Positions 13,949-59,491 of a DNA stretch of 64,000 nt are shown here, one piece after another. Each line of letters starts with the position of its first letter. The stretch's first letter is position 1. The stretch lies in NCBI RefSeq assembly GCF_001550095.1, contig NZ_LRUC01000010.1, forward strand, positions 62,001 through 126,000, in the 5' to 3' direction. Both the position numbers and the translations under genes were made by a program. This stretch comes from Celeribacter ethanolicus. Its GTDB lineage: Bacteria > Pseudomonadota > Alphaproteobacteria > Rhodobacterales > Rhodobacteraceae. The notes beneath the pieces were generated by a model. The model was not told where the DNA came from. It was given only the letters and a program-made list of their open reading frames with translations, and made no database searches.

Positions 13949-13975
13949 TTGAGTATTTTGGGCAGCAAAGGAAAC
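13949..13975 (+). repeat. Dispersed stop-codon-linked element, copy 1
   Basis: TTGAGTATTT, then TGGG, then CAGCAAAGGAAAC, 3 nt after the soxT stop codon and on the soxT strand. Similar copies are at 39456-39480, 55551-55577 and 59465-59491, with variants at 47237-47261 and 31584-31608 (minus). Confidence 0.8.
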
Positions 13976-13984
13976 AGTGCTCGC

Positions 13985-15235
13985 TCAGCCCAGGATCAGC
14001 ACCTGAAGATCGGCGACATTCGTTCCCGTGGCGCCGATCTGTAACAGGTCTCCGGCGGCTTTGAGCCCACGGTAACTGTCGTTGCGCGCAAGCACCTCCT
14101 GCGGGTCCAGACCCGCCTCCCGCATCCGGTCGAGCGTGCCGGGATCGACCAGACCGCCCGCCGCATCGGTCGGACCATCGCGCCCGTCGGTGCCGCCCGA
14201 GAGAAAAACGTAATCCCCAAGCCCCGCCGCTTCGGCCAGCACCGCCACCCGCAGAGCAAGCTCCTGATTGCGCCCACCAAGCCCGTCGCCCGTCAGTTTC
14301 ACCGTGGTCTCGCCACCGAATAGAAACACGCCGCGCTCGCCCGAGCCTTTGGCACAATCGACGATAATCCTGGCCGCCTCGGCGACATCGCCCTCAAGCG
14401 GCATCGGGAAGACATGCACCCCATGGCTGGCCCCGCCCCCCGCCGCGCGCGCCATGGCCGCGACCGAAATCTTGTTCGACCCGATGAGTGTGGAGGAACT
14501 CTCCGGCAAGGGACCGAGATCGGGTTGCGGCTGTGACAGGTAGGTCGTCACCGACGCGGGCAGCCTGTCCCAAAGTCCGAGGTCGATCAACACCGCTGCC
14601 GCTTCGGCCCGCGTGCCGATGGGCGAAACGGTCGGCCCGGACGCAATCGCCCGCAGATCGTCCGACACCACATCCGACAGCAAAAGCGCCGTGACCTTCG
14701 CAGGCGCCGCCGCCCTGAGCAAACCGCCACCCTTGAGCCGGGACAACTGTTGCCGCACGAGGTTCATCGTCACAATGTCCGCGCCCGAGGCCAGCAAAAG
14801 CCGGTTGACCTCCGCCTTGTCCTCCAAGGACACCCCCGCCACCGGCGCGGGCAAAAGCGCGGAACCGCCGCCCGAAATCAGCGCAAGAACATCGCCCGTC
14901 GCATGCGACAGCGCCTCCTCGACCCGAAGCGCGGCGCGCGCGCCCTCGGCATCCGGCACCGGATGACCCGCGGCCAGCACCTCCGCCCCCGCAAGGGGGC
15001 TGGCGTTTTCGTAATTCGTGACAACGATGACCGTGCGCGCCCTGACCTGGCGCATGGCCGCTTCCGCCATGCTCCGCGCCGCCTTGCCCACCGCGATGAT
15101 GATCGGCTGCTCGAAGCTCTGCCCGGCAAGGGCCGCCTCGACGGCCTGACCGGGATCGGCCGCCGCCACACCTTCGAGGAAAATCTCGCGCGCCCGGGCC
15201 CGCAGTTCATTGATTTGAGAGGGTTCGCTTGTCAT
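13985..15235 (-). CDS. Glycerate 2-kinase (MOFRL family)
   Basis: A 416-residue enzyme that phosphorylates D-glycerate with ATP to 2-phosphoglycerate, in glyoxylate, serine-cycle or tartrate breakdown. The N-terminal DUF4147 domain shows IIAVGKAARSMAEAA, AGHPVPDAEGARAA and LALISGGGSALLPAP. The C-terminal MOFRL domain (about residues 300-405) shows FLFGGETTVKLTGDGLGGRNQE-type motifs and FLSGGTDGRDGPTDAAGG. A longer upstream frame overlaps the divergent selD and is not coding. The start at 15235 (MTSEPSQINELRA) leaves 102 nt to selD. The gene converges on soxT with the repeat element between them. Confidence 0.92.
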   Translation of the reverse strand: MTSEPSQINELRARAREIFLEGVAAADPGQAVEAALAGQSFEQPIIIAVGKAARSMAEAAMRQVRARTVIVVTNYENASPLAGAEVLAAGHPVPDAEGARAALRVEEALSHATGDVLALISGGGSALLPAPVAGVSLEDKAEVNRLLLASGADIVTMNLVRQQLSRLKGGGLLRAAAPAKVTALLLSDVVSDDLRAIASGPTVSPIGTRAEAAAVLIDLGLWDRLPASVTTYLSQPQPDLGPLPESSSTLIGSNKISVAAMARAAGGGASHGVHVFPMPLEGDVAEAARIIVDCAKGSGERGVFLFGGETTVKLTGDGLGGRNQELALRVAVLAEAAGLGDYVFLSGGTDGRDGPTDAAGGLVDPGTLDRMREAGLDPQEVLARNDSYRGLKAAGDLLQIGATGTNVADLQVLILG

Positions 15236-15337
15236 GACCGGATGTTGACACGTTGACCCTGCGGCGTCCAGCGCCCTTGCCAAGCCGCACGCTTCGCGGC
15301 AGGTTTCGCAGGACATTGCCCGATACGGAGCCGAGAG

Positions 15338-17533
15338 ATGCATGAGCTTCCCCTCACCCGAGAACTGGTCCTGATCGGCGGCGGACACAGCCATGCGCTG
15401 ATCCTGAAACGCTGGGGGATGAAGCCCCTTCCCGGCGTGCGCGTGACGGTGATCAACCCGGGCGCGGTGGCGGCCTATTCCGGCATGTTGCCGGGGTTTG
15501 TGGCCAAACATTACCAACGCGAAGAGTTGGAGCTCGATCTGGTGCGACTGGCGCGTTTTGCTGGTGCGCGGGTGCTCCTCGGTCGGGCCACCGGGATCGA
15601 CCGCGACGCCCGTCTGGTGCATGTCGAAGGCCACCCGCCGATCCGCTACGATTATGCCTCCATCGACATCGGCATCACCTCCGCCATGCCCGATCTGGAC
15701 GGGTTTGCCGATTACGGCGTGCCAGCCAAACCGCTCGAGCGCTTTGCGACCCGGTGGGACGCGTTTCAGACCGCCGCGCGTCAGGGTGAGGTCCTGCCCC
15801 ATATGGCGGTGATCGGGGGCGGGGTCGCGGGCGCGGAACTCGCCGCGGCCATGGCGCATCGTCTGGGCGATCTGCCGCAGATGGAGATCACGCTCATCGA
15901 CCGGGGCGAAATCCTTTCCGAGATGCGCGCGCCGACCCGGCACCGCCTGCTCAAAACCCTCGCCGATTTGCGCGTCACCTTGCGCCCGCAAGCCGAGGTT
16001 GCCCGGATCGAAGCCGATCGGGTCAGTTTCACCGACGGCAGTGCGCTCGGCAGCTTCTTCACCCTCGGCGCGGCAGGCGCGCGTCCCTATGACTGGCTCG
16101 CCGACTCCGGTCTCGATCTGCACGACGGCTTCGTCACCGTCGGCCCGACGCTGCAATCCTCCGATCCGCGCATTTTCGCCGCCGGAGATTGCGCGCATCT
16201 CGCCTTCGATCCGCGCCCCAAGGCGGGCGTCTATGCGGTGCGCGAGGCACCCGTGCTGTTCGACAACCTGCGCGCCTGCCTGAGCGAAGGCCCCGGGGGG
16301 CGCCTGCGCCCTTACAAGCCGCAAAAGGACTATCTCAAGCTGATCTCTCTGGGCGGCCAATCCGCCCTCGCCAACAAGGCGGGGCTTGTCACCTCCGGCC
16401 CGCTGATGTGGCGCTGGAAAGACCGGATCGACCGAAAATTCATGGAGAAACTCAAGGAACTGACCCCAATGACGCCCCCCGCCCTGCCCGCCCAGGTGGC
16501 CGAGGGGCTGCGCGAAGAGGTCGAGGGCAAAAAACCGATGTGCGGTGCCTGCGGCGCCAAGGTGGGCGGCAACATCCTCACCCGCGTGCTGCGCGAGCAG
16601 CCCGGTGAGGGGCGGCCCGCTTTAGAGCGGCGCGACGTGCTGCATCTGGCGGGCGACGACGCCGCCCTCCTGACCCATGGCGACACCTGGCAGGTGGCCT
16701 CTGTCGATCACCTGCGCGCCTTTGTCGAGGACCCGGTGCTGATGACGCGGATCACCGCGATCCATGCGCTCGGCGATGTCTGGGCCATGGGGGCCTCGCC
16801 TCAGGCAGCCCTCATGACCGTCACCCTGCCGAAAATGAGCGCGGCGTTGCAGGAGGGCTGGCTGGCGGAAATCATGCAGGCCGCGCGCGATGTCTTCACC
16901 GAGGAAGGCGCGGAGATCATCGGCGGGCACACCGCGATGGGATCCGAGTTCTCCGTCGGCTTCACCGTCACCGGCCTGCTGGATCAGCCGATCACACTCA
17001 AGGGCGCCCGCCCCGGCGATCGGCTCATCCTGACCAAACCTCTGGGCACCGGCGTGATGCTCGCCGCAGAGATGGAGATGAAGGCCAGCGGGCGCGACAT
17101 GGAGGCCGCCTATGCCTCAATGGTTCAAAGTTCCGGCGAGGCGGCGCGCATTCTGGGCAATGCCCATGCGATGACCGATGTCACCGGCTTCGGCCTGGCG
17201 GGGCATCTCTTGGGCATCTGTCGCGCCTCGGAAGTCGGCGCGGTGCTCCGGCTCGACGATGTGCCACTGCTGCCCGGTGCTTTGGAGCAATCCATGACAG
17301 GCATGCGTTCGACGATCTACACCGCGAACCGCGCCTATACCGCAGAATATCAGGGCCCGGAAGGGGCGCTGGCCGATCTCCTGTTCGACCCGCAAACCGC
17401 CGGTGGGCTTCTGGCCTGTCTGTCACCGATGCGGGCGGAGAAATGCGTGACGGCGCTTCGGGCGGCAGGCTACGAGGCCGCCCTGATCGGGGAAATCACC
17501 GAAGGCCCCGTGCGGCTCACGATCGACGCTTAA
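15338..17533 (+). CDS. selD: FAD-dependent oxidoreductase fused to selenide, water dikinase (SelD)
   Basis: A 731-residue two-domain protein. Residues 1 to about 385 are a pyridine-nucleotide disulfide oxidoreductase/NDH-2-like FAD domain: LVLIGGGHSHALILKRWG, a second Rossmann motif VIGGGVAGAELAAAM, and FAAGDCAH. Residues from about 395 to 731 are SelD, which makes selenophosphate from selenide and ATP. The active-site CxxK is intact (Cys405, Lys408), with HLAGDDAALL, GGHTAMGSEF, DVTGFGLAGHL and DPQTAGGLL. The FAD part lacks an obvious CxxC pair, so it is not clearly a sulfide:quinone reductase. The fusion is known in some alphaproteobacteria. The partner selU/mnmH is convergent next door, pointing to tRNA selenouridine synthesis. 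Confidence 0.93.
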   Translation: MHELPLTRELVLIGGGHSHALILKRWGMKPLPGVRVTVINPGAVAAYSGMLPGFVAKHYQREELELDLVRLARFAGARVLLGRATGIDRDARLVHVEGHPPIRYDYASIDIGITSAMPDLDGFADYGVPAKPLERFATRWDAFQTAARQGEVLPHMAVIGGGVAGAELAAAMAHRLGDLPQMEITLIDRGEILSEMRAPTRHRLLKTLADLRVTLRPQAEVARIEADRVSFTDGSALGSFFTLGAAGARPYDWLADSGLDLHDGFVTVGPTLQSSDPRIFAAGDCAHLAFDPRPKAGVYAVREAPVLFDNLRACLSEGPGGRLRPYKPQKDYLKLISLGGQSALANKAGLVTSGPLMWRWKDRIDRKFMEKLKELTPMTPPALPAQVAEGLREEVEGKKPMCGACGAKVGGNILTRVLREQPGEGRPALERRDVLHLAGDDAALLTHGDTWQVASVDHLRAFVEDPVLMTRITAIHALGDVWAMGASPQAALMTVTLPKMSAALQEGWLAEIMQAARDVFTEEGAEIIGGHTAMGSEFSVGFTVTGLLDQPITLKGARPGDRLILTKPLGTGVMLAAEMEMKASGRDMEAAYASMVQSSGEAARILGNAHAMTDVTGFGLAGHLLGICRASEVGAVLRLDDVPLLPGALEQSMTGMRSTIYTANRAYTAEYQGPEGALADLLFDPQTAGGLLACLSPMRAEKCVTALRAAGYEAALIGEITEGPVRLTIDA

Positions 17534-17534
17534 G

Positions 17535-17576
17535 GCGGTCCGCCAAAAAACTGAGACACAGATTTTGGCGGACCGC
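17535..17576. repeat. 14-bp-arm inverted repeat between selD and mnmH
   Basis: GCGGTCCGCCAAAA (17535-17548) and TTTTGGCGGACCGC (17563-17576) are perfect inverted copies around a 14-nt loop. The arm begins 2 nt after the selD stop, between convergent genes. On either strand a short T-run lies inside the stem rather than after it. It is probably a bidirectional terminator, but terminal repeats of a lost small mobile element are an alternative. Confidence 0.7.
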
Positions 17577-17634
17577 AGTACAAGATATAAGCCTGACACG
17601 CGCCCTGCCTTTTTCTGATTAAAGGCGTGACGCT

Positions 17635-18681
17635 TTAAAGCTGTTCCATAAAGCGTGTAATGCCCGCCGCCGCATCTTCGCGCGCGGCTACGCTCATATC
17701 GCCGAGATCGACATGTGCCAGCACCTCGGGCGCATGGCGGGCGCGGGCTTTCTCGTAGCGTGGATCGTAATGCTGCGCCATGAGCGCCGCCGCCAGTTCG
17801 ACAACATCGCCCCGCGCCGCCATCTCCCGCCAGGCATCGACCCGCGCATGGCCTTGCAAAGGAACAAGCTGATCGAGCCGCGCCGCCATCAGCTCGGCAT
17901 CTTCGACAAGATCCGCGTAGGCCTCGGCAAGATAGCGCGCCCGGACCCCCAGTTCCGCGCTCACCTCGATGCGCGGCGCGGCACACATCGCCGCCCAGAG
18001 CGCGGGCGGCACCGACAGCTCGCCGATCCGCGAGCTTTCCGCCTCCACCAGCACCGGCCTCGCGGGGTCGAGCCGCGCAAGCGCCGCCGCAAGCCGGCTC
18101 TCAAAGCCTTTCTGCGCCGGCTGATCCCCCATGCCGCCAAAGATCGAGCCGCGGTGATTGGCAATGCCTTCGAGATCGAGCACCTGCCCGTCCCGCGCCG
18201 CCACCCGCTGCAACAGATCGGTCTTGGCCGTGCCCGTGTTGCCGTCGATCAGCACGAAACGATGCGGCAGCAGCGTGTCGTGCAACATACCGATCACCGC
18301 CTTGCGCCAGCTCTTATAGCCGCCGTCCACCACCTCCACCCGCCAGCCGATCTGGCGCAGGATGATGGCAAAGGAATTCGACCTCTGCCCCCCGCGCCAA
18401 CAATAGACCAGCGGCTGCCAGCCACCCTCCTTGTCGGCCAGCGGCCCCTCGATATGATCGGCGGCGTTGCGCGCCACCAGAGCCGCACCGAGCTTGCGCG
18501 CCAGAAAGGGCGATTGTTTGTAGACCGTCCCGACCTCGGCCCGTTCGACATCCGAAAGCACCGGCAGGTTGATCGCGCCGGGCACATGGTCCTCAGCAAA
18601 CTCGGACGGCGCACGCACGTCGATCACCGTGTCGAACGGTGCATCAAGGAACTGTTGGACGGTGGCAAACGCGATACTCAT
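17635..18681 (-). CDS. mnmH: tRNA 2-selenouridine synthase (SelU/MnmH)
   Basis: A 348-residue protein that replaces the sulfur of 2-thiouridine at the wobble position of some tRNAs with selenium from selenophosphate. The N-terminal rhodanese domain (about 1-125) has the catalytic cysteine in VYCWRGGQRSNSFA. The C-terminal domain carries a P-loop-like GNTGTAKTDLLQ, then LDLEGIANHRGSIFGG, both typical of SelU. Length is usual. It converges on the selD fusion gene, which would supply its substrate. No selA, selB or selC is seen here, so selenocysteine insertion is not indicated by this window. Confidence 0.93.
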   Translation of the reverse strand: MSIAFATVQQFLDAPFDTVIDVRAPSEFAEDHVPGAINLPVLSDVERAEVGTVYKQSPFLARKLGAALVARNAADHIEGPLADKEGGWQPLVYCWRGGQRSNSFAIILRQIGWRVEVVDGGYKSWRKAVIGMLHDTLLPHRFVLIDGNTGTAKTDLLQRVAARDGQVLDLEGIANHRGSIFGGMGDQPAQKGFESRLAAALARLDPARPVLVEAESSRIGELSVPPALWAAMCAAPRIEVSAELGVRARYLAEAYADLVEDAELMAARLDQLVPLQGHARVDAWREMAARGDVVELAAALMAQHYDPRYEKARARHAPEVLAHVDLGDMSVAAREDAAAGITRFMEQL

Positions 18682-18788
18682 AGGGCTTTGTAGCGCCGGA
18701 TCGACAGGTCGAACAGGGCTATCGTTTCGTTCTGCAAAGCGGGCCCCGGCCCGTCACATGGTACTGCACGAAACCCAACGCCCGCGAC

Positions 18789-18895
18789 TTCTGGAGCATA
18801 GCTTTGTGCTTCATGCTGTGTCCAGCGGTGTGCCACTACATCTGATTCAGCCTTGGTTGGGTCACACGCATGGAGCCAGTAAGTGGCCGGGTATG
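18789..18895 (+). pseudogene. Remnant of a tyrosine recombinase (phage-type integrase)
   Basis: In one plus-strand frame the translation reads LLEHSFVLHAVSSGVPLHLI followed by QPWLGHTHGASKW. This matches the region around the conserved HxLR-to-LGH motif of tyrosine recombinases (compare H.V.SGVPL..IQ.WLGH). Only about 35 codons remain. There is no upstream catalytic Arg and no downstream Tyr, and the frame then loses all similarity. It lies 130 nt from the tRNA-Thr 3' end, a usual integration target. The rest of 18682-19026 shows nothing else recognisable. Confidence 0.6.
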
Positions 18896-19026
18896 AAAAC
18901 TACCGTTGCCCTCTCGCCACGCCGAGATTCTTCCCGCCGCGTGCTTCCGTATTGCTTCCGTTTTTCAAAACGGAGCAAACGTGAACGCGTCAATATTGCG
19001 CAACATATTGATTTTATTGATAAGAA

Positions 19027-19102
19027 TGGTGCCCCCACACGGACTCGAACCGCGGACCTACTGATTACAAATCAGTTGCTCTACCAGCTGAGCTATAGGG
19101 GC
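19027..19102 (-). tRNA. tRNA-Thr (anticodon TGT)
   Basis: The minus strand folds as a full cloverleaf. The acceptor stem is GCCCCTA/TGGGGGC with discriminator A and an encoded CCA (19027-19029). The D arm is GCTC-AGCTGGTA-GAGC, the anticodon stem ACTGA/TCAGT holds loop TTTGTAA, and the T arm CGCGG-TTCGAGT-CCGTG. The anticodon TGT complements 19067-19069. It lies between the integrase remnant (3' side) and the GGDEF-like remnant (5' side). Confidence 0.97.
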
Positions 19103-19160
19103 ACTCAGGCGCCCATTTAAGCGTGCAACCAGGGACGCGCAAGCGATTTGTCGTTCTTTC

Positions 19161-19331
19161 AGCCAGCGCCCTCTCCAGTACCACCCGATTTCCGCCGGCA
19201 CGGCGTGCGGCATCGAATGCCCGGTGCGCGGTCGCCATACAGGAGATCAGGCCTCTGTGGGCCCGGCACGTTCCGCCGATCGAAACTGTCAGGGCAGCGG
19301 CCCGGAAAATCAGACCAACCGCAAGGCTCAA
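19161..19331 (-). pseudogene. Possible C-terminal remnant of a GGDEF diguanylate cyclase
   Basis: Minus-strand translation gives AAALTVSIGGTCR and, about 15 residues later, ATAHRAFDAARRAGGNRVVL. This resembles the end of GGDEF domains (TVSIG, then A.D.A...AKR.GRNRV). Only about 57 codons are present, with no GGDEF motif, no upstream domain and no convincing start. It is probably a decayed gene. The remainder of 19103-19423 shows no other gene. The match is by eye to a short motif and so is tentative. Confidence 0.4.
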
Positions 19332-19423
19332 TAGAGATCTGACACGCCCGACCCCCTCGGCTTACTCCGCACGAACATGGCATGAGCAAAGCAGGATTGG
19401 GTTACAACTTGCTTAATGACCGC

Positions 19424-21127: not shown

Positions 21128-21322
21128 TCTTCCGGCTTACTGCCTTTCCGACAGGACGTGAAGCCCAGTTTCGCCGCAAAATCCAAGGGATCGTGGCTAT
21201 TTTGCCGTGCGGACCTCAGGGCGAATCCGGTTTCCCTACCGGCAAAACCGGTTATATTAACGCTAACGCGCCGCCGCAAAATCAGGCACGGCATAAGAAC
21301 AGAGACAGGACCGACAGAGCCC

Positions 21323-22201: not shown

Positions 22202-22209
22202 GGTCCGCC

Positions 22210-22902: not shown

Positions 22903-22925
22903 GACGGAACCTCGGAACAGGCGCC

Positions 22926-29116: not shown

Positions 29117-30859
29117 TCAGAACAGGAAGTACCTCTGCGCCATCGGCAGTTCCGTCGCCGGTTCACAGGTCAAAAGCTCGCCATTGGCCCGCACCTCATA
29201 GGTCTCAGGGTTCACCTCGATCTCGGGCGTCGCGTTGTTCATCACCATGGAGGATTTGCCGATGTTGCGGGTGTTCTCCACCGCGAGCGTCTGCTTGGCG
29301 AGACCGAGCTGCTTGCCGATGCCATCGGTCTGTGCCGCCTGGGACACGAAGAGCACGGCAGAGTTTTCCACAGCGCGTCCCATCGCCCCGAACATCGGTC
29401 GCGTGTAAACCGGCTGCGGAGTCGGGATCGAGGCGTTCGGATCACCCATCTGCGCCACGGCGATCATCCCGCCGAGCAGAACCATCTCCGGCTTCACGCC
29501 AAAGAACGCCGGCGACCAGATCACCAGATCCGCGCGTTTGCCGACCTCGACCGTGCCGATATGACGGCTCATGCCATGCGCGATCGCCGGGTTGATGGTG
29601 TATTTCGCGACATAGCGCTTGACCCGTACATTGTCATTGTCGCCGGTCTCATCCGACAGACGCCCACGCTGTTTCTTCATCTTATCGGCGGTCTGCCATG
29701 TGCGGATGATCACCTCGCCCACACGGCCCATCGCCTGACTGTCCGACGAAATCACCGAAAACGCCCCCATGTCATGCAGAATGTCTTCCGCCGCAATCGT
29801 CTCCTTGCGAATGCGGCTTTCGGCAAAGGCCACGTCTTCAGGGATCGACTTGTCGAGGTGGTGACAGACCATGAGCATGTCGAGATGCTCTTCCAGAGTG
29901 TTCTGGGTAAAGGGCCGGGTCGGGTTCGTCGACGAGGGCAGGATGTTCTCATGCCCCACCACCTTGATGATGTCCGGCGCATGGCCGCCACCCGCGCCTT
30001 CGGTGTGATAGGCGTGGATCGTCCGGCCCTTGATGGCCGCCAGTGTGTTTTCCACGAACCCGCTCTCGTTAAGCGTATCCGTGTGGATCATCACCTGCAC
30101 ATCCATGTCATCGGCCACCGAGAGGCAGCAATCAATCGCGCCGGGCGTCGTCCCCCAATCCTCATGCAGCTTAAGCGCCGCCGCCCCCGCCTTGACCATC
30201 TCGACAAGCGCACCGGGTTGCGAAGCGTTGCCCTTGCCCGCGAGCGCGATGTTCATCGGCACACCGTCCAGTGCCTGCAACATCCGCCCGATGTGCCACG
30301 GCCCCGGCGTACAGGTGGTCGCAAGCGTGCCATGTGCCGGCCCCGTGCCGCCGCCCAGCATACAGGTCAGCCCGGAATGCAGCGCATCCTCGATCTGCTG
30401 CGGACAAATGAAGTGAATATGGCTGTCAAAGCCCCCCGCCGTGATGATCCGCCCCTCGCCCGCAATCGCCTCTGTGCCCGGCCCGACGATGATATCGACA
30501 CCCGGCTGGGTATCCGGGTTCCCGGCCTTGCCGATGCCCGCGATCCGCCCGTCCTTCAACCCGATGTCGGCCTTGTAAATCCCGGTCACGTCGAGGATCA
30601 GCGCATTGGTGATCACCGTATCGACCGCGCCCTCGGCGCGGCTTTTCTGTGACTGGCCCATGCCGTCGCGAATGACCTTGCCCCCGCCGAATTTGACCTC
30701 CTCGCCATAAAGCGGAGCATTCCTGCCCCGGCCCGCAAGCTCTGAGGTCAGGTCACGCTCAACCTCGATGATCAGATCGGTATCGGCCAGCCGAACCTTG
30801 TCGCCGGTGGTCGGACCGAACATGTCGGCATAAGTGGCGCGGGAGATTTTTGCAGGCAT
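29117..30859 (-). CDS. ureC: UreC, urease alpha (catalytic) subunit
   Basis: A 580-residue amidohydrolase that splits urea to ammonia and carbamate. Nickel ligands and catalytic features are present: [14 protein letters not shown], the carbamylated lysine in [35 protein letters not shown], the flap motif [13 protein letters not shown], and [13 protein letters not shown]. The length is a little above the usual 567-572. It follows the LprI-like gene by 10 nt in the order ureD-ureA-ureB-lprI-like-ureC. Confidence 0.97.
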
Positions 30860-31583: not shown

Positions 31584-31608
31584 GCTTTCTGATGGTCCAA
31601 ATACTCAA
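31584..31608 (-). repeat. Dispersed stop-codon-linked element, variant copy in the ureA-ureB gap
   Basis: On the minus strand TTGAGTATTT, GGAC, CATCAGAAAGC begins 1 nt after the ureA stop codon. It ends 13 nt before the ureB start, just upstream of the ureB ribosome-binding site. Only this copy and 47237-47261 have the CATCAGAAA ending. Confidence 0.75.
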
Positions 31609-39050: not shown

Positions 39051-39494
39051 ATGACCCCGCTCCGCCTCGCCAATCTCTCGCTCCTGCTCCTCTTCCCCAT
39101 CGCATGGGTCGCGCCGCTGATGCGCGCGGGATTGTTGCCGCTCTTTGGCTTGTCGGAAATCTCCGTCCTTTCGGGCATCGTGAGTCTCTGGGACAAGGAC
39201 ATTCCGCTAGCCCTCGTGGTCATCTTCTTCGCCCTGATCGCCCCCATCACCAAAGTCATCGCGCTCGAAGGCCTGCTCTCCGGCCGTCTGCCTGCCCGCA
39301 TGAAACCGTGGCTGTTTCGGCTCGGGCGTCTGGCGATGGCCGATGTGTTCCTGGTTGCGATCTACATCACCCTCGCCAAGGGCATCGGCGTCGGGCGGGT
39401 CGAAGTGGGTTGGGGATTGTATCTGTTCACGTTTTGCGTGCTGGCCAGCCTTGGATTGAGTATTTTTGCAGCAAAGGAACAAGAGACCGCTTGA
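39051..39494 (+). CDS. Paraquat-inducible protein A-like membrane protein
   Basis: A 147-residue protein with about four transmembrane helices. It resembles the PqiA domain: LGLSEISVLSGIVSLWDKDI, PLALVVIFFALIAPITKVIAL and RLGRLAMADVFLVAIYITLAKG are its typical segments. PqiA-type proteins are membrane partners of MCE lipid transport systems, in keeping with mlaEF upstream. The last codons (encoding LSIFAAKEQETA) lie in a copy of the dispersed TTGAGTATTT element, so the native end has probably been replaced by repeat sequence. Confidence 0.8.
   Translation: MTPLRLANLSLLLLFPIAWVAPLMRAGLLPLFGLSEISVLSGIVSLWDKDIPLALVVIFFALIAPITKVIALEGLLSGRLPARMKPWLFRLGRLAMADVFLVAIYITLAKGIGVGRVEVGWGLYLFTFCVLASLGLSIFAAKEQETA
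39456..39480 (+). repeat. Dispersed stop-codon-linked element, copy inside the pqiA-like 3' end
   Basis: TTGAGTATTT, TT, GCAGCAAAGGAAC lies within the reading frame of the pqiA-like gene and encodes most of its last residues. It is on the gene's own strand, 14 nt before the end of the stop codon. Confidence 0.75.
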
Positions 39495-47236: not shown

Positions 47237-47261
47237 TTGAGTATTTAGACCATCAGAAAAC
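47237..47261 (+). repeat. Dispersed stop-codon-linked element, variant copy after the NlpD-like gene
   Basis: TTGAGTATTT, AGAC, CATCAGAAAAC starts 6 nt after the stop codon, on the gene's strand, and is followed by the terminator at 47270. It matches the minus-strand copy at 31584-31608 in 23 of 25 positions. Confidence 0.78.
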
Positions 47262-47269: not shown

Positions 47270-47308
47270 AAACCCCGATGTGCTTCACACATCGGGGTTT
47301 CGTTTTTT
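47270..47308. terminator. Strong bidirectional terminator
   Basis: AAACCCCGATGTG (47270-47282) and CACATCGGGGTTT (47288-47300) are perfect 13-bp arms with a 5-nt loop, followed by CGTTTTTT. On the minus strand the stem ends in TTTTTC. It lies between the convergent NlpD-like and DUF815 genes and can serve both. Confidence 0.92.
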
Positions 47309-47332
47309 GGGGCTTTCTGATGACTCATATAC

Positions 47333-48175
47333 TCAGCCGAGTTTGATGCCCTTGCGTCCAGCCAGATCGGTGAAGAACTGCCATGCCACACGGCCCGACC
47401 GCGAGCCGCGTGTCGCCTGCCATTCGATAGCTTCGGCGCGCAATGTCTCATCGTCGATCTCGACGCCGTATTCCGTGCAATAGCCCCGGATCATCGCCAG
47501 ATATTCATCCTGCGAACAGGGATGGAAGCCGAGCCACAGCCCGAAGCGATCAGACAGGGAGACCTTTTCCTCCGTGGCCTCGGAGGGGTTGATCGCAGAG
47601 CTGCGCTCGTTCTCGATCATGTCGCGCGGCATCAGGTGGCGGCGGTTCGAGGTGGCATAGAACAGGACGTTGTCGGGGCGGCCTTCGATCCCGCCGTCGA
47701 GCACCGCCTTGAGCGATTTGTAATGCTCGTCGTCATGGCTGAACGACAGGTCATCGCAGAACAGCACGAAACGATACCCGGAGCCACGCAGCAGATTGAG
47801 CAGACGCGCCACGGAAGGCAGATCCTCGCGCTGCATCTCGACGATCTTGAGCGGCGTCCCCTCGGCATTCACCGCCGCATGCACCGCCTTGACGAGAGAG
47901 CTTTTCCCCATGCCGCGCGCGCCCCAAAGGAGCGCATTGTTGGCGGGGAGGCCTCGGGCAAACTGGCGGGTGTTTTCCAGAAGCGTATCGCGCGACCGGT
48001 CCACCCCAATCAGGAGCGAAATATCCACGCGCGACACTTTGGTCACCGGATGAAGCGCGTCCGGTTCTGTCTGCCAGACATAGGCATCTGCGACGTCGAA
48101 ATCTGGCGTGGCCAGCGGCGCGGGGGCCATGCGTTCCAGCGCTTCGGCGATACGTTTGAGTGCTTTAGTCTTCAT
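47333..48175 (-). CDS. DUF815-family AAA+ ATPase
   Basis: A 280-residue ATPase. Walker A is ALLWGARGMGKSSLVKAV, Walker B FVLFCDDLSFSHDDEHY, and a sensor region NVLFYATSNRRHLMPRD follows. The end, EWQATRGSRSGRVAWQFFTD, is typical of DUF815. The family is widespread and its role is unknown. It starts 3 nt after the tatC stop, so it is cotranscribed with tatABC, as in other Rhodobacterales. Confidence 0.9.
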   Translation of the reverse strand: MKTKALKRIAEALERMAPAPLATPDFDVADAYVWQTEPDALHPVTKVSRVDISLLIGVDRSRDTLLENTRQFARGLPANNALLWGARGMGKSSLVKAVHAAVNAEGTPLKIVEMQREDLPSVARLLNLLRGSGYRFVLFCDDLSFSHDDEHYKSLKAVLDGGIEGRPDNVLFYATSNRRHLMPRDMIENERSSAINPSEATEEKVSLSDRFGLWLGFHPCSQDEYLAMIRGYCTEYGVEIDDETLRAEAIEWQATRGSRSGRVAWQFFTDLAGRKGIKLG

Positions 48176-51079: not shown

Positions 51080-51085
51080 CGTCGG

Positions 51086-53286: not shown

Positions 53287-53316
53287 GGCGCGCTCCCTTA
53301 TGTTTTATGCTGTGTC

Positions 53317-54096: not shown

Positions 54097-54510
54097 CGCA
54101 TTCTCCTTCCGATACACTCTTGTCCGATATGTAGAACCCGCACCCCGGCTTGTCATCCGCCAACTGCGCACCCCGGTGCGACTCGCCCGGAGCGGATAAA
54201 CCGGGGTTTGCGACGGAGAAAGAACCACTCTCGCCCAAATCCCGCCATTGTTTCCGATCACAATGGGAGTGTTTTACCAAGTATACCCCGCTCACCCGGC
54301 GAAGAGGCGTTTCTATGTACTTCTATGTACAATGACACCGAGTCCCGGCATAATGGAACCTCCGTTGTCACGGGCAGGATCGCGCTCCGGTTTGCGTGCG
54401 GACCTGAGTGCCGGATCGCCTCCGGCATTCGGAACGGTTCCGCCAAATGCCGTTCCTGACAATGGACCTTTTCGGGGGAAAGGGGATTTGGGACAGTGTT
54501 GGGGAAAGGC
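54097..54510. other. 414-nt intergenic region with a tandem decamer and an inverted repeat
   Basis: No gene is visible. TTCTATGTAC occurs twice in tandem (54311-54330). A nested inverted repeat lies at 54424-54451: CGGAAC-G-GTTCCG (54430-54442) inside GGCATT and AATGCC. It is about 60 nt before the Hint gene start. It is divergent promoter space for the SDR and Hint genes. Confidence 0.6.
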
Positions 54511-55554
54511 ATGACGGCAGTCAGCAGGGATCATCACATGCAGGCTCGGATGGACGGCCAGACCGGCCTGCCGGTGCAGAGCCTTGCAGTCTATCGCGCA
54601 AGCGCGTTGCGGGTCACCAATGGGGTGAACCTGGGCGAACCGCTTGCGAATGCCGCTGAGCTTGAGTTGGCCGATGTCTATGAATTGCGCAAACAGGCCA
54701 TACGCGAGCGGCTCACCGTCAACGTCGATGGTGACAAGTTGCGCGTGGCCGAAGGGTCCGAGCTTGGCGCGCCCGGGCACGATCTGCACCTCGACTGCGT
54801 CGCGACCTTCATGGCCGGCTCCGGCAATACCATCGAGGTTCTGCTGCTCGTCGAAACCGACGCGGGCGGCCTGATCGAAGGCACCTATTTCCTGCCCTTT
54901 GCTGCGATGCAGCCGGATGTGGAATATGTGCTCGTGAAACTGGACGAGAACACCGTGCGCACACGGCTTTCCGATGTCGCCTGTGTCGCCTTTACCCGCG
55001 GCACACGGATCACTCTGGCCAACGGCATGCAGAAACCCATTGAAGAACTCACGGTCGGGGATCGCGTATTAACCCGCGACCACGGCCCGCAGGAGGTCCG
55101 CTGGATCGGGTGTCAGACCGTGCGAGCGACCGGGGCCTTCGCCCCCATTGTGATCAAGGAAGGCGCGCTGAACAACGCCCATGACCTGATCGTGTCGCCA
55201 AACCACCGGATCTTCATCTACCAGCGCCGCGATGCGGTGCACGCCGGTCGGGCGGAAGTTCTGGTCAAGGCGAAGCTTCTGGTCAACGGCCAGAATGTGA
55301 TCCAGTCCGAGGGCGGGTTTGTCGACTATTTCCAGCTTTTGTTCGACACCCATGAGATCATCTATGCCGAGGGTATCGCTGCCGAGAGCATGTTCGTCGA
55401 CGGGCGTGTGAAACCGTTCCTGCCCGAGGATGTGCAGGCGCGGATCGCCTCAGAACACGCCCATGCAGAAACCCCGCGGGCCTTCGAGCTGCGCGACGGG
55501 ATGCTGGAGCCTTCGGTGGCCGCCGACGTGCTGCGGTCGGCCTCCGGAAGCTGA
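54511..55554 (+). CDS. Hint_2 (hedgehog/intein-like) domain protein
   Basis: A 347-residue protein. Residues 1 to about 155 are a beta-rich N-terminal part. The Hint domain runs from about 158 to 300, with the autocatalytic Cys158 in VACVAFTRGTRITLANG, then IEELTVGDRVLTRDHGPQEV and the conserved His in VSPNHRIFIYQ. Such proteins are abundant in Rhodobacterales; cleavage or cholesterol-like transfer has been suggested for the fold, but their role is unknown. GGGGAAAGG precedes the ATG at 54511. The stop codon lies inside a copy of the TTGAGTATTT element. Confidence 0.87.
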   Translation: MTAVSRDHHMQARMDGQTGLPVQSLAVYRASALRVTNGVNLGEPLANAAELELADVYELRKQAIRERLTVNVDGDKLRVAEGSELGAPGHDLHLDCVATFMAGSGNTIEVLLLVETDAGGLIEGTYFLPFAAMQPDVEYVLVKLDENTVRTRLSDVACVAFTRGTRITLANGMQKPIEELTVGDRVLTRDHGPQEVRWIGCQTVRATGAFAPIVIKEGALNNAHDLIVSPNHRIFIYQRRDAVHAGRAEVLVKAKLLVNGQNVIQSEGGFVDYFQLLFDTHEIIYAEGIAAESMFVDGRVKPFLPEDVQARIASEHAHAETPRAFELRDGMLEPSVAADVLRSASGS

Positions 55555-55577
55555 GTATTTGGAGCAGCAAAGGAAAC
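55551..55577 (+). repeat. Dispersed stop-codon-linked element, copy overlapping the Hint gene stop
   Basis: CTGAGTATTT, GGAG, CAGCAAAGGAAAC. The TGA at 55552-55554 is the Hint gene stop codon, so the element supplies the stop. It differs from the others by C instead of T at its first base. Confidence 0.78.
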
Positions 55578-55584
55578 GGAAAAG

Positions 55585-55605
55585 CGCGCATCAGGGCGCG
55601 TTTTT
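55585..55605 (+). terminator. Terminator after the Hint gene
   Basis: CGCGC (55585-55589) pairs with GCGCG (55596-55600) around a 6-nt loop and is followed by TTTTT. The stem is short. It starts 8 nt after the repeat copy. Confidence 0.6.
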
Positions 55606-55666
55606 GTTGTGTGCAGAGTGTTCTGGCCCATTGCCGGGGCGCATACCCGCGCGTATATGAACGCGC

Positions 55667-57274
55667 ATGTTGGATCGCAGCCATAACGCCCCCGAATTGC
55701 CGCCGGAGATTGCACGTCGCCGGACCTTCGCCATCATCTCGCACCCGGACGCCGGTAAGACGACGTTGACGGAGAAGTTCCTGTTGTACGGCGGCGCGAT
55801 CCAGATGGCCGGTCAGGTGCGCGCGAAAGGCGAAGCGCGACGCACGCGCTCGGACTTCATGCAGATGGAAAAGGACCGCGGGATTTCCGTGTCGGCCTCG
55901 GCGATGTCGTTCGATTTTTCGGGCTATCGGTTCAACCTTGTCGACACGCCCGGCCACTCGGACTTTTCCGAGGACACCTACCGCACGCTCACCGCTGTGG
56001 ATGCCGCGATCATGGTGATCGACGGGGCGAAGGGCGTTGAAAGCCAGACGCAGAAGCTGTTCGAGGTCTGCCGTCTGCGCGATCTGCCGATCCTGACCTT
56101 TTGTAACAAGATGGACCGCGAAAGCCGGGACACGCTTGAGATCATTGACGAAATCCAGGAAAACCTTGCGATTGACGTGACACCCGCCTCCTGGCCGATT
56201 GGCGTCGGACGGGATTTCCTTGGCTGCTATGACGTGCTCAATGACCGTCTCGAACTGATGGACCGCGCCGACCGCAACAAGGTGGCCGAGAGCATCAAGA
56301 TCGAGGGGCTGGACGATCCGAAACTCGCCGACCACGTTCCCGCGCATCTGTTGGAGCAGCTCAAGGAAGAGCTCGAGATGGCGCGCGAGCTGTTGCCGCC
56401 GTTCGACCGCCAGGCCTTCCTGGATGGCACCCTGACACCGATCTGGTTCGGCTCCGCGATCAATTCCTTCGGCGTCAAGGAGCTGATGGACGGGATCGGC
56501 AAATACGGCCCCGTGCCGCAGCCGCAATCGGCCGAACCGCGCGCCATCGGGCCGGAAGAGAACAAGGTCATGGGCTTTGTTTTCAAGGTTCAGGCCAATA
56601 TGGACCCGAAACACCGCGACCGGGTGGCTTTTGTGCGGCTGGCCTCCGGGCATTTCAAACGTGGCATGAAGCTGATGCATGTGCGGTCGAAAAAGCCGAT
56701 GGCGATCTCGAACCCGGTGCTGTTTCTGGCCTCCGACCGCGAATTGGCGGAAGAGGCCTGGGCCGGGGACATCATCGGCATTCCGAACCACGGGCAATTG
56801 CGCATCGGCGACACGCTGACCGAGGGCGAGGACATTCGTGTGACCGGCATTCCGAGCTTTGCTCCGGAATTGTTGCAAGGCGTCCGCGCGGGCGATCCGA
56901 TGAAGGCCAAGCACCTCGAGAAAGCGTTGATGCAATTCGCCGAGGAAGGCGCGGCGAAGGTGTTCAAACCGGCGATTGGCTCTGGCTTTATCGTCGGCGT
57001 TGTCGGCGCGCTTCAATTCGAAGTGCTGGCCTCGCGCATTGAGTTGGAATATGGCCTGCCTGTTCGATTTGACGCATCACAGTTCACATCTGCGCGCTGG
57101 GTGAGCGGTCCGAAGTTGGAAATGGACAAGTTTATCAACGCGAACAAACAGCATATTTCCTACGATCACGATGGCGATCCGGTGTTCCTGACGCGTCTGC
57201 AATGGGACATCGACCGGATCGAGCGGGATTATCCGGAGCTGAAACTGTCGGCGACCAAGGAAATGATGATCTGA
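55667..57274 (+). CDS. prfC: Peptide chain release factor 3
   Basis: A 535-residue translational GTPase that recycles RF1/RF2 after termination. G-domain motifs are IISHPDAGKTTLTEK (G1), DTPGHSDFSEDTYRT (G3) and TFCNKMDRE (G4). RARTRSDFMQMEKDRGISVS-like switch I reads GEARRTRSDFMQMEKDRG. Domains II and III (about 280-535) end in ERDYPELKLSATKEMMI. The family length is about 525-530. It is a single gene with a long inverted repeat after its stop. Confidence 0.96.
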   Translation: MLDRSHNAPELPPEIARRRTFAIISHPDAGKTTLTEKFLLYGGAIQMAGQVRAKGEARRTRSDFMQMEKDRGISVSASAMSFDFSGYRFNLVDTPGHSDFSEDTYRTLTAVDAAIMVIDGAKGVESQTQKLFEVCRLRDLPILTFCNKMDRESRDTLEIIDEIQENLAIDVTPASWPIGVGRDFLGCYDVLNDRLELMDRADRNKVAESIKIEGLDDPKLADHVPAHLLEQLKEELEMARELLPPFDRQAFLDGTLTPIWFGSAINSFGVKELMDGIGKYGPVPQPQSAEPRAIGPEENKVMGFVFKVQANMDPKHRDRVAFVRLASGHFKRGMKLMHVRSKKPMAISNPVLFLASDRELAEEAWAGDIIGIPNHGQLRIGDTLTEGEDIRVTGIPSFAPELLQGVRAGDPMKAKHLEKALMQFAEEGAAKVFKPAIGSGFIVGVVGALQFEVLASRIELEYGLPVRFDASQFTSARWVSGPKLEMDKFINANKQHISYDHDGDPVFLTRLQWDIDRIERDYPELKLSATKEMMI

Positions 57275-57298
57275 CCAGACGGCTGAGCGCGGCATTCT

Positions 57299-57342
57299 GC
57301 CGATCCGTGCCAAAAGGGGATTCCCTCCCGGCACGGATCGGC
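57299..57342. repeat. 13-bp-arm inverted repeat after prfC
   Basis: GCCGATCCGTGCC (57299-57311) and GGCACGGATCGGC (57330-57342) are perfect inverted copies around an 18-nt loop that itself contains GGGGATTCCC. No T-run follows (TAAACTGCC). It may be a factor-dependent terminator, an mRNA 3' stabiliser, or an operator for the gene at 57381. Confidence 0.7.
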
Positions 57343-57380
57343 TAAACTGCCAAGAACACCCTCATCATTCAGGAGCCTTC

Positions 57381-57830
57381 ATGTCCGTCAGCCGCCTCGC
57401 CCTTACCGCCGGCCTCTCCGCCACCGCCGTCTCGACGCTGGGCTTGCCAGCCCTTGCCGAGACCTCCGGCTGGGACCTGCTCAAGGGGATCACCATCGAA
57501 GAGATCGTGACTGACAGCAGCTACGAGGTGAAGAAGGGCTTCCCGGAGCGGCTCAAGAACGGCATCGAAGGAATGGAGCTGACCGGCTATGCCGTTCCGC
57601 TGACGCCCGGCGCGGATGTCACCGATCTGATCCTCGTCTCCGACATGGGGCTTTGCCCGTTCTGCGGCAGTGCCGACCATGGCGCTTCGGTTCAGGTCAG
57701 CCTCAACACCCCGATCCAGGGGCTCGAGGAAGGCGCGCGGATCACGCTCAAGGGCAACATGAAACCGGTGCTCGACCCGGAGACATGGCAGGCGGCAATT
57801 CTGGAAAATGCAGAGGTTGTCGGCGGCTGA
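57381..57830 (+). CDS. Periplasmic protein with a CPFC motif, function unknown
   Basis: A 149-residue protein with a cleavable signal peptide (MSVSRLALTAGLSATAVSTL, ending at ALA). The mature part has LTGYAVPL, then LILVSDMGLCPFCGSADHGA with CxxC, and an OB-like strand set ARITLKGNMKPVLDP. The CPFC-x5-H arrangement suggests binding of zinc or another metal, as in DUF3299-like proteins. No partner is evident; the neighbours are housekeeping genes. Confidence 0.65.
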   Translation: MSVSRLALTAGLSATAVSTLGLPALAETSGWDLLKGITIEEIVTDSSYEVKKGFPERLKNGIEGMELTGYAVPLTPGADVTDLILVSDMGLCPFCGSADHGASVQVSLNTPIQGLEEGARITLKGNMKPVLDPETWQAAILENAEVVGG

Positions 57831-57970
57831 GCCCGACAGATCGGCCTTTCCTTGACCTTTTTGTGATTGAAGCGTAGAAGACGCGCCAAAGCGTTCCGGC
57901 AATATGGCCGGGCGGGCCGCGCGGGGTTTTGCGGCCATTTTCACAGCCGCACCATCGCGAAAGGCACAGT

Positions 57971-59410
57971 TTGACCAAGTTCACCGATCTCAATCTCGCT
58001 CCGAAAGTTCTCAAAGCCATCGAAGATGTCGGCTACGAGACACCCACGCCGATTCAGGCCGGAGCGATTCCGCCCGCGCTTGAGGGCCGTGACGTCCTGG
58101 GCATCGCCCAGACCGGGACCGGTAAAACCGCGTCTTTCGTGTTGCCGATGATCACCATGCTGGCCCGTGGCCGGGCGCGCGCGCGCATGCCGCGCTCTCT
58201 GGTCCTCTGCCCGACGCGGGAACTGGCCGCGCAGGTTGCCGAGAACTTCGATCAGTACACGAAATACATGAAGCTCACCAAAGCGCTGCTGATCGGCGGT
58301 GTGAGCTTCAAGGAACAGGACGCGCTGATCGACAAGGGCGTCGACGTTCTGATCGCCACGCCCGGTCGTCTTTTGGACCATTTCGAGCGCGGCAAGCTGA
58401 TCCTGTCCGATGTGAAAGTCATGGTGGTGGACGAGGCCGATCGGATGCTCGACATGGGCTTTATCCCGGACATCGAGCGCATCTTCGGTCTGACGCCCTT
58501 CACCCGCCAGACACTGTTCTTCTCCGCCACCATGGCCCCCGAGATCGAACGCATCACCAACACCTTCCTCTCTGCGCCTGCGAAGATCGAAGTGGCGCGT
58601 CAGGCGACCGCCTCCGAACGGATCGAACAGCACGCGGTGATGTTCAAAGGCTCCCGCCGCGACCGTGCCGCAAGCGAGAAACGCGCCGTGCTGCGCGCCC
58701 TGATCGACCAGGAAGGTGCGACGCTTCAGAACGCGGTGATCTTCTGCAACCGCAAGACGGATGTGGATATCGTCTCGAAGTCGCTCAAGAAATACGGCTA
58801 TGACGCGGCCCCGATCCACGGCGATCTGGACCAGAGCCAGCGCAACGCCACGCTCGACGGCTTCCGGGCCGGCAAGATCAAGATCCTCGTAGCCTCCGAC
58901 GTTGCCGCCCGTGGTCTCGATGTGCCCTCCGTAACCCATGTGTTCAACTTCGACGTGCCGGGCCATGCCGAGGATTACGTTCACCGCATCGGCCGGACCG
59001 GTCGCGCGGGCCGCGATGGCAAGGCGATCACGCTGGTCGAGCCGCGCGACGAAAAGAATTTCGCTGATGTCGAGACGCTTCTGACCAAGGAAATCCCCCG
59101 GATGGACAATCCGCTCGGGAATGCCGCACCCGCAGAAGAAGAGACGGAGCAGCGCGGTGAGAAACCGAAACGCACCCGGTCGCGCAAACGCAAACCCGAG
59201 GATGCCCCCAAGACTGATGCGCCCAAAGCCGAAGCTCCCGTCGAAGCACAGGCCGAAGACGCCCCGCGCGAAGAGGCTCCGAGGTCCGAACCGCGCTCTG
59301 ACAATCGCGCGCGCCGGGGCCGCAAGGAAGACGACAACAAGGTCGTGGGCCTTGGAGATCACCTGCCCTCCTTCATCGCGCTCAGCTTTGAGGAACGTCA
59401 GGCTGGCTAA
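57971..59410 (+). CDS. rhlE: RhlE-like DEAD-box RNA helicase
   Basis: A 479-residue helicase. Q motif FTDLNLAPKVLKAIEDVGYE then TPTPIQ, motif I AQTGTGKTASF, Ia PTRELAAQV, II VDEADRMLD, III SATMAPE and VI HRIGRTGRAGRDG are present. The C-terminal about 90 residues are a basic/acidic, Ala/Pro-rich tail (RTRSRKRKPEDAPKTDAP). No ATG exists at the start. TTG 57971, with AAAGG 6 nt upstream, directly precedes the Q motif and is the best choice. A strong terminator follows. Confidence 0.93.
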   Translation: MTKFTDLNLAPKVLKAIEDVGYETPTPIQAGAIPPALEGRDVLGIAQTGTGKTASFVLPMITMLARGRARARMPRSLVLCPTRELAAQVAENFDQYTKYMKLTKALLIGGVSFKEQDALIDKGVDVLIATPGRLLDHFERGKLILSDVKVMVVDEADRMLDMGFIPDIERIFGLTPFTRQTLFFSATMAPEIERITNTFLSAPAKIEVARQATASERIEQHAVMFKGSRRDRAASEKRAVLRALIDQEGATLQNAVIFCNRKTDVDIVSKSLKKYGYDAAPIHGDLDQSQRNATLDGFRAGKIKILVASDVAARGLDVPSVTHVFNFDVPGHAEDYVHRIGRTGRAGRDGKAITLVEPRDEKNFADVETLLTKEIPRMDNPLGNAAPAEEETEQRGEKPKRTRSRKRKPEDAPKTDAPKAEAPVEAQAEDAPREEAPRSEPRSDNRARRGRKEDDNKVVGLGDHLPSFIALSFEERQAG

Positions 59411-59434
59411 GCCCCCTACCCTTTCCGGACATAA

Positions 59435-59461
59435 AAAACCCGCGCCGAAAGCGCGGGTTTT
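59435..59461. terminator. Terminator after rhlE
   Basis: AAAACCCGCGC (59435-59445) and GCGCGGGTTTT (59451-59461) are perfect arms with loop CGAAA, followed by GTTTT. It lies between rhlE and the convergent RNase J gene and can act in both directions. Confidence 0.9.
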
Positions 59462-59464
59462 GTT

Positions 59465-59491
59465 TTGAGTATTTAGGGCAGCAAAGGAAAC
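59465..59491 (+). repeat. Dispersed stop-codon-linked element, copy after the rhlE terminator
   Basis: TTGAGTATTT, AGGG, CAGCAAAGGAAAC. It matches copy 1 (13949-13975) at 26 of 27 positions. It lies 54 nt after the rhlE stop and 15 nt from the end of the convergent RNase J gene. This is the only copy not close to its upstream stop codon. Confidence 0.82.

Follow-up and report, generated by a model that had tools for sequence, protein, structure and literature searches.

The ends of genes in Celeribacter ethanolicus carry a dispersed element of about 25 nt, composed of the head GAGTATTT, a free joint of about three bases and a purine-rich tail. Comparing sequences within the Rhodobacteraceae, we show that the element is placed at gene ends, that its head and tail are conserved around the free joint, and that its tails are lineage-specific and can be exchanged. 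One interpretation, which we put forward tentatively, is that the element is a directional 3′-end signal of some 25 nt that might be read in RNA by a putative co-evolving factor.

Results

Copies of the element in the window

An earlier, sequence-only reading of the 64-kb stretch of DNA analysed here (the window) had described six copies, and all six are present, with the positions and strands listed in Table 1. That reading had proposed a control against chance. The sequence YTGAGTATTT, with up to one mismatch, has eight matches in the window as compared with a mean of 1.55 in shuffled sequence, and eight or more were reached in none of 100 shuffles. A seventh, decayed copy (CTGAGTATATGAGTCATCAGAAAGC) faces the copy at 47237, with a hairpin between the two; its orthologue at the end of the DUF815 gene of C. 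halophilus has an intact head. Five of the six original copies had been placed at a stop codon, no more than 7 nt from one, or within the last codons of a gene, as we found for those at 13949, 31608 (minus strand), 47237, 55551 and 39456; the exception is the copy at 59465.

Table 1. Copies of the element and associated hairpins in the window
Feature	Position	Strand	Context
Element copy, tail AGCAAAGGAAAC	13949..13975	+	Sulphur-transport (SoxT-like) gene; head 3 nt past its stop
Element copy, tail CATCAGAAAGC	31584..31608	-	Within one operon, between urease gamma and urease beta; gamma stop 1 nt upstream
Element copy, tail AGCAAAGGAAC	39456..39480	+	Among the 13 final codons of a PqiA-like ORF; encodes LSIFAAKE
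Element copy, tail CATCAGAAAAC	47237..47261	+	LysM/M23 peptidase gene, stop 6 nt upstream; a hairpin follows
Hairpin CCCCGATGTG...CACATCGGGG, 3′ side T-rich	47273..47297	+	Separates two facing copies; coordinates counted by hand
Decayed copy, head GAGTATaT	47312..47336	-	Head TGA is the stop of a convergent DUF815 gene
Element copy, tail AGCAAAGGAAAC	55551..55577	+	Hint-domain gene, whose stop codon is the TGA of CTGAGTATTT
Hairpin with T-run	55585..55605	+	3′ of the 55551 copy, upstream of prfC (RF3); coordinates counted by hand
Terminator-like hairpin CCCGCGC...GCGCGGG with TTTTGTT	59439..59464	+	Immediately 5′ of the 59465 head; coordinates counted by hand
Element copy, tail AGCAAAGGAAAC	59465..59491	+	54 nt past a DEAD-helicase stop, behind the hairpin/T-tract terminator of that gene

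The Pfam domains of the six upstream genes are sulphur-transport, urease gamma, PqiA, LysM with peptidase M23, Hint and DEAD-helicase. No terminator-like hairpin adjoins the copy at 13949, which has the end of a convergent gene 11 nt behind it, and the tail of the copy at 59465 points towards the end of an RNase J-like gene running in the opposite direction. The site at 55551 is common to five of the six Celeribacter species compared, with tails that differ among them.

The family in the C. ethanolicus genome

The pattern YTGAGTATTTN{0,8}CARMAA matched the genome 35 times and its reverse not once, and GAGTATTT was found 155 times as compared with 53 for the control. A genome-wide profile search, also suggested by the earlier reading, was carried out with a model derived from the sequences of 43 copies and gave 100 matches at E<=10, the weakest of which are doubtful. 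From these we dropped six weak matches (11.8-14.2 bits), four lacking an exact GAGTATTT, and a further four located on contig C48, a redundant piece of the assembly that duplicates contig C10 at a constant offset, leaving 86 copies for analysis. Among the 79 copies with a recognised tail, the joint was 3 nt long in 56, 4 nt in 19 and 2 nt in 4, lengths that depend on where the start of the tail is set; joints vary from copy to copy within one genome.

Placement at stop codons and terminators

As judged from our own gene-caller predictions of stop codons and gene ends rather than from curated annotation, 41 of the 86 heads start between −6 and +15 nt from a sense stop, a distance seen for 14 of 183 occurrences of 400 permuted 8-mers in the window and for 1.07% of random positions. 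The earlier proposal of a family-wide 3′-end element is thus upheld. The TGA of the head is itself the stop codon in 16 of the 41 stop-near copies.

We refer to elements at a stop codon as class A and to those behind a terminator as class B. A strong hairpin before the head (score >=20, within 12 nt) was present in 26 of the 86 copies, namely in 25 of the 45 non-stop copies but in only one of the 41 stop copies, and a downstream hairpin with at least three T residues accompanies nine of the 41 class A copies. Over all 86 copies, a GC-rich hairpin with a T-run was not a constant part of the unit. Twelve stop copies were without a downstream canonical terminator by the criterion used. They occupy 10 convergent sites whose two stops are 33-72 nt apart, and at five of these sites we could read neither a flanking strong hairpin nor a facing second copy.

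The genes neighbouring the 86 copies were convergent in 44 cases and divergent in three (p = 2.5e-10), and tandem-sense in 30 as compared with tandem-antisense in eight (p = 4.7e-4). However, 62 elements from four genomes of other genera gave a tandem-sense to tandem-antisense ratio of 18:18, and the orientation relative to genes is, therefore, not general; the placement on the sense strand noted earlier holds for this genus but not for those four genomes. Copies whose only nearby stop is antisense, at the tail, make up two of the 86, and stop-near copies that lack a hairpin are in sense orientation. Among elements that have no hairpin before them and at least 60 nt behind them between tandem genes, 11 of 13 heads lie at the stop when 2.46 would be expected, and none of 1,000,000 simulations reached 11; this excess led us to reject, for Celeribacter, the idea that the stop position merely offers permissive space. 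Copies inside predicted genes are few (2 of 86 in this genome and 4 of 128 in seven others), and inverted pairs of elements occur, either tail-to-tail or around hairpins.

Tail dialects in the Rhodobacteraceae

The head recurs over the Rhodobacteraceae and is enriched in 61 of 196 sampled genomes; no enrichment was seen outside the family in the sample. Copy number is patchy, with two or fewer matches in 84 of the 196 genomes and counts of up to 146 matches per genome. The tails are dialects that differ by lineage, and at a given site one dialect can stand in for another. There are several tails per genome, several genomes carrying two or three, and the tails form a gradual series in which neighbours are one or two bases apart. 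Both endings recognised in the earlier reading exist, but many tail types occur, and these two do not form a pair of subfamilies. Tail arrays were observed in C. baekdonensis (loci L423 and L425), and hairpin modules adjoin the head in other genera. We found no paper on the motif in the open-licence literature, where printed DNA strings may be split or placed in figures.

Conservation at orthologous gene ends

Of 80 gene ends queried, 34 were matched, yielding 75 orthologue pairs, 64 of them with an exact head; this proportion is no retention rate because the loci compared were mostly fetched for carrying the element. Over the 64 pairs, identity was 83% in the tail, 63-69% in the flanks and 48% in the joint, and the MITE-like sharing of a whole sequence, middle included, was not seen between these orthologues. 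The head was 98% identical, which is partly by construction. The prfC site of C. baekdonensis was scored as negative in this comparison, yet the head is present there, the script having missed it. Because the tails, unlike the joints, stay alike between orthologues, head and tail appear to be kept by selection and not by recent copying.

Mobile elements and RNA families

Recent mobile copying was rejected, given that joints vary both within a genome and between genomes whereas the tail is kept. REP elements with RAYT (Y1) transposases are extragenic and have an imperfect palindrome inside the repeat unit. The element resembles them in its extragenic position at gene 3′ ends, often beside hairpins, and in its inverted pairs. 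Unlike them, it keeps its head and tail conserved while the joint between them is free, and it is without an internal hairpin; reading of the alignment revealed no internal inverted repeat in single copies, the hairpins lying beside the unit. The Y1 (RAYT-type) transposase domain PF01797 was found in two of 12 high-copy and none of 14 low-copy genomes. A REP/RAYT origin was rejected because the transposase is missing from the C. ethanolicus genome and from 10 of the 12 high-copy genomes. The suggestion of a mobile miniature element that targets gene ends by preference is consequently not supported, on grounds both of this distribution and of the retention of tails, but not joints, between orthologues.

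A search of the window and 12 loci against Rfam at gathering thresholds gave three matches, none of them on an element. The tail sequence GCAAAGGARAC matched the genome 46 times, as compared with 30 for the reversed control. Four non-element contexts resemble coding or ribosome-site sequence, and at least three further non-element matches lie outside those four; the contexts inspected (four of at least seven) offered nothing convincing for a small RNA that would act in trans by pairing with the tail.

Discussion

A proposed directional signal at the 3′ end

If the element is a 3′-end signal, it would act in the RNA of any transcript crossing it from head to tail. A class A element would lie within the mRNA and would itself be the main end-forming signal. 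A class B element would be transcribed only by read-through, or as part of antisense RNA nearing the next gene, and might serve as a fail-safe. A putative trans-acting factor would read the family-constant head together with the tail, the tail changing along with the factor, and its binding could result in cleavage, termination or decay. In its more general form, which we regard as plausible but still well short of probable, the hypothesis is that of a two-part end-of-gene code, in which a co-evolving reader of the constant 8-base head and the lineage tail sets transcript ends or bars transcription into the next gene. Such a code would be nearer in function to signals of the eukaryotic 3′-end or Nrd1/Nab3 type than to intrinsic or Rho-dependent termination.

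Several observations fit poorly with recognition in RNA. Sense and antisense placements are balanced in other genera, the mature sense transcript of class B genes should end upstream of the element, and the dialects are hard to reconcile with a general RNase or Rho. The available part of the RNase E map of Rhodobacter sphaeroides describes AU-rich sites, yet these are frequent near start rather than stop codons (PMC6238624), and the available part of a study of PNPase-dependent 3′ ends reports no motif (PMC7866481).

Possible recognition in DNA

The balanced orientation in other genera favours recognition at the DNA level, for which one could envision two scenarios. In one, which we consider rather unlikely, the element is the site of a sequence-specific DNA-binding protein that would organise the chromosome, influence supercoiling or provide insulation, using separate domains or subunits to contact head and tail. 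The near-constant spacing (a 3-nt joint in 56 of 79), the occurrence of both orientations relative to genes outside this genus, and the C. baekdonensis tail arrays, which look like repeated binding sites, are in keeping with such a protein, but the stop-near copies of Celeribacter are almost all sense. A simple RNA polymerase road-block fits badly and was set aside by reasoning: polymerase would halt before copying a stop codon borne by the head, and a block at that position would generate messages without a stop.

The other scenario, to which we give slightly less credence, is that of a recognition sequence kept by biased DNA exchange, like the DNA uptake sequences (DUS) of the Neisseriaceae, with a family core, species dialects, permissive intergenic spots and inverted pairs at terminators. 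According to the available part of the DUS study, these sequences have a core, dialects and terminator-linked inverted pairs (PMC3630211). The element is similarly a short motif whose enrichment is confined, in the genomes sampled, to one family, with a common core and species-typical dialects (although several genomes hold two or three tails), minority dialects within a genome, and inverted pairs tail-to-tail or flanking hairpins. The orientation balance, the patchy copy number and the gradual tail series also agree with such exchange. On the other hand, the likeness is one of sequence, and the element is about 25 nt long with a free joint. Its copies number some 20-150 per genome, with counts of up to 146 matches, whereas 1543 and more than 3400 DUS are given for some genomes; intragenic DUS are called common there (PMC3630211, in the part available), whereas almost no copies of the element lie in genes. 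Finally, Celeribacter copies hug the stop codon instead of filling permissive space.

Terminator accessories and inert repeats as improbable alternatives

Decidedly improbable, in our view, is a role as an accessory to intrinsic terminators, or as an RNase E site whose A-rich tail binds Hfq, with no special reader in either case. Many class B heads immediately follow a hairpin and T-tract, and other copies lie just before one. The head resembles the RNase E site motif (GU/AUU), and several tails resemble the ARN repeats of Hfq-type sites. However, a tail specific in sequence and lineage is foreign to terminators, and this explanation leaves unaccounted for both the class A copies without a strong hairpin and the uniformity of tails within a genome combined with their difference between species. 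The R. sphaeroides RNase E sites share with the element a U/A-rich sequence in gene-end RNA, but in the part of the map available they are AU-preferring, frequent at start codons and not reported to be enriched at stops (PMC6238624), and an 8-base head with a dialect tail is far more specific.

We give least credence to an extragenic repeat that was dispersed by a transposase in the past, has no function for the host and is now decaying. This would suit the many intergenic copies, the hairpin modules of other genera and the patchy distribution, but not the head and tail kept at orthologous sites around a free joint, the joints that differ among copies within one genome, or the rarity of the Y1 transposase.

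Implications

According to the prevailing view, bacterial transcripts end at hairpins or through Rho. Should the element prove to form or guard 3′ ends, bacteria would possess an end-of-gene signal that is sequence-specific. Should it turn out to be a protein-binding site or one of the DNA uptake type, it would be the first such dialect system known to us in the Alphaproteobacteria. The dialects make the question testable, since a reader must exist whose specificity tracks the tail from species to species. For genome annotators, the element is a simple marker of gene ends in a large and ecologically important family.

Copies and anatomy of the element

All six copies of the gene-end element that had been picked out in the sequence-only reading were recovered when the sequence of the window was checked, and the table adds one more. 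By its prfC, the 4.2-Mb genome that contains the window (G000) most likely belongs to Celeribacter, the nearest relatives being C. persicus (98%), then Celeribacter sp. PS-C1 (96%) and C. halophilus (95%). In this genome the head-plus-tail pattern gave 35 matches, as compared with 0 for the reversed pattern, and the head GAGTATTT by itself gave 155, as compared with 53 in the control. A sequence-only model trained on 43 copies returned 100 matches at E<=10; 6 of these were discarded as weak, 4 for an inexact head and 4 for lying on a duplicated contig, which left the 86 copies analysed here. Matches on contigs C10 and C48 are shifted throughout by the same 111,717 bases, and one region seems to be present twice in the assembly.

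The head is preceded by T in most copies and is followed by a short joint and, 3′ of it, a purine-rich tail. Of the 79 copies with a recognised tail, 56 have a joint of 3 nt, 19 one of 4 nt and 4 one of 2 nt; the third position of the joint is T in just 1 of 75 copies. Tails in this genome are AGCAAAGGAAAC-like (41/86), CATC(A/G)GAAA-like (20/86), ACAAAGGAAAC-like (16/86), CAAGAAAAAG (2/86) or of other types (7/86). Tail types form series of small steps, such as CTGCAATGAAG, CTGCAATAAAG, TCGCAATAAAG, TCGCGATAAAG, TCACGATAAAG and TCACGGTAAAG. C. baekdonensis (G013; loci L423 and L425) carries tandem tails behind a single head, made up of three CACGGTAAA(A)G units.

Position at gene ends

The proposed link to stop codons held against both permuted 8-mers and random positions. 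Gene ends were called from codon usage, with the window as training sequence, and not taken from curated annotation; on this basis the head lay between −6 and +15 nt relative to a sense gene's end in 41 of 86 copies, versus 14 of 183 occurrences of 400 8-mer permutations in the window and 1.07% of 20,000 random positions. The stop codon is the head's own TGA in 16 of these 41. A strong hairpin ending no more than 12 nt before the head was found in 25 of the 45 non-stop copies but in only 1 of the 41 stop-codon copies; a looser criterion, which would also admit several stop-codon copies, places a hairpin before 33 of the 45.

Although random window positions fall more often between divergent than convergent genes (549 versus 230 of 20,000), the neighbours of the 86 copies are convergent in 44 cases, tandem-sense in 30, tandem-antisense in 8, divergent in 3 and undefined in 1; two copies lie within predicted genes. 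When the set is narrowed to tandem pairs in which the element is followed by 60 nt or more and not preceded by a hairpin, the head is at the stop in 11 of 13, as against 2.46 expected, and 11 was never reached in 1,000,000 simulations.

No downstream canonical terminator, by the criterion used here, was found for 12 stop-codon copies at 10 convergent sites, where the stop-to-stop distance is 33–72 nt. Two of these sites have two copies facing tail to tail, three further sites are accompanied by a strong hairpin, upstream in one case and downstream in two, and at five a single element is the sole recognisable signal. An RNase J-like gene (Pfam) faces the copy at 59465, which is probably a coincidence.

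Coordinates of features discussed in the text
Feature	Position	Strand	Remark
Seventh copy of the element, decayed	window 47312-47336	minus	
Convergent site, strong hairpin upstream	C47:90753		with T-tract
Convergent site, strong hairpin downstream	C47:117130		too few T
Convergent site, strong hairpin downstream	C49:123740		too few T
Recurrent GC-rich hairpin modules immediately 5′ of head, other genera	L279, L319-L334, L337-L355		GGGGGCGCTGCCCCC, GGGGGTTTCACACCCCC, GCCTCCGGCGG, long CGTCGTCCATTGG stem
RNase J-like gene	window 59510-61168	minus	
5' ureB small RNA (RF02514) match	window 30385-30674	plus	97.1 bits, cut-off 40
CcsR1 match	L272:1964-2048	minus	67.2 bits, cut-off 65.3

Conservation and range

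Comparison of 64 pairs of orthologous sites within the genus, all with an exact head in the relative, gave an identity of 83% in the tail, 63% in the 5′ flank, 69% in the 3′ flank and 48% in the joint; the 98% identity of the head is partly by construction, and because most relatives' loci were chosen for carrying an element, a retention rate is not readable from these pairs. By our reading of the pair list, tail type differs at the same site in roughly 30 of the 64. At the gene end before prfC, TGAGTATTT is kept in five of the six Celeribacter species compared, with the remainder of the element varying in type (AGCAAAGGAAAC, ACAAAGGAAAC, CTGCAATGAAGAC, CTGCGACGAAGG, CTGCAATGAAAC), and among these six the element is absent in C. 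litoreus. At the facing pair C33:32572, C. baekdonensis (L429) has another tail in both copies. About 60 nt past that pair, close to a convergent gene end, L429 carries TCAGGTAATCTGA twice in tandem, which is either unrelated or a further tail type.

Enrichment, taken as 10 or more matches and a count at least fivefold that of the reversed control, was found for the pattern GAGTATTTN{9,12}GAAR in 61 of 196 sampled genomes of the order, all 61 from Rhodobacteraceae, and this is a lower bound because the pattern is blind to some tail types, or dialects (e.g. CACGGTAAAG). Totals were 3649 versus 348 in the control, and 84 genomes had at most two matches. Dialects across the family include CCAAGATGAAG, GGAACAATGAAG, GGAACATTGAAG and CCAATAAGAAA, and one genome (G029) has three dialects. 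In a separate scan, the own-genus tail pattern matched in 12 of 61 genomes, all 12 inside the genus. When 192 genomes from across the class (189 outside the family) were sampled, a comparable excess was not seen among the matches listed, where the top total outside the family was 14 versus 6 in the control and the tails were unlike each other.

Three further own-genus genomes (G001, G013, G019; 66 elements) resembled the home genome, with 40 convergent, 18 tandem-sense, 6 tandem-antisense and 2 divergent placements. Outside the genus, four genomes with 62 elements between them gave 21 convergent, 18 tandem-sense, 18 tandem-antisense, 1 divergent and 4 intragenic. Avoidance of divergent promoters is thus general and sense orientation is not: the earlier claim that copies lie on the sense strand of the preceding gene applies to the genus (30 to 8 at home) but not to the other genera (18:18). 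By eye, a GC-rich hairpin module usually precedes the head in these four genomes, for example GGGGGCGCTGCCCCC...CCCCCG or GCCTCCGGCGG. At five loci of a genome from another genus (G299; L272, L302, L305, L306, L316), the head of the facing partner is of a GATATTT type (read AAATATC), not GAGTATTT, possibly a second head class. L272, itself element-bearing, also has a match to CcsR1, the CCUCCUCCC-motif stress RNA.

Possible modes of action and relation to known systems

That head, tail and joint are conserved to different degrees calls for a reader of both head and tail. A road-block on duplex DNA would not suit the stop-codon copies. The leading single reading, at low confidence, is that the element is a signal in RNA, active in any transcript that passes over it in the head-to-tail direction; stop-codon copies would then be part of the mRNA, and hairpin copies would be present only in read-through or antisense RNA. 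An RNA-level 3′-end signal fits both kinds of copy, but the equal orientation in other genera weakens it and favors a site acting at the level of DNA. Our confidence in the RNA reading is therefore low, and the DNA-level rivals, all taken together, are slightly likelier.

As far as the excerpted text of PMC3630211 goes, the DNA uptake sequences of Neisseriaceae resemble the element in combining a core with dialects and in forming inverted pairs linked to terminators, but they are far more numerous and common within genes. Identity with REP/RAYT repeats was ruled out by the transposase test. R. sphaeroides RNase E sites are described, in the excerpted text of PMC6238624, as frequent near start codons. 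Rfam gave no family at the element copies searched. Elsewhere in the window, the RF02514 match lies antisense to a predicted gene at the ureC position of the urease operon, and may be conserved coding sequence, not RNA. A search of the open-licence literature found no description of the motif. Judged from sequence, the element would be a categorically new kind; the label reflects that it fits none of the known kinds when judged by what defines each, and it claims nothing about function.
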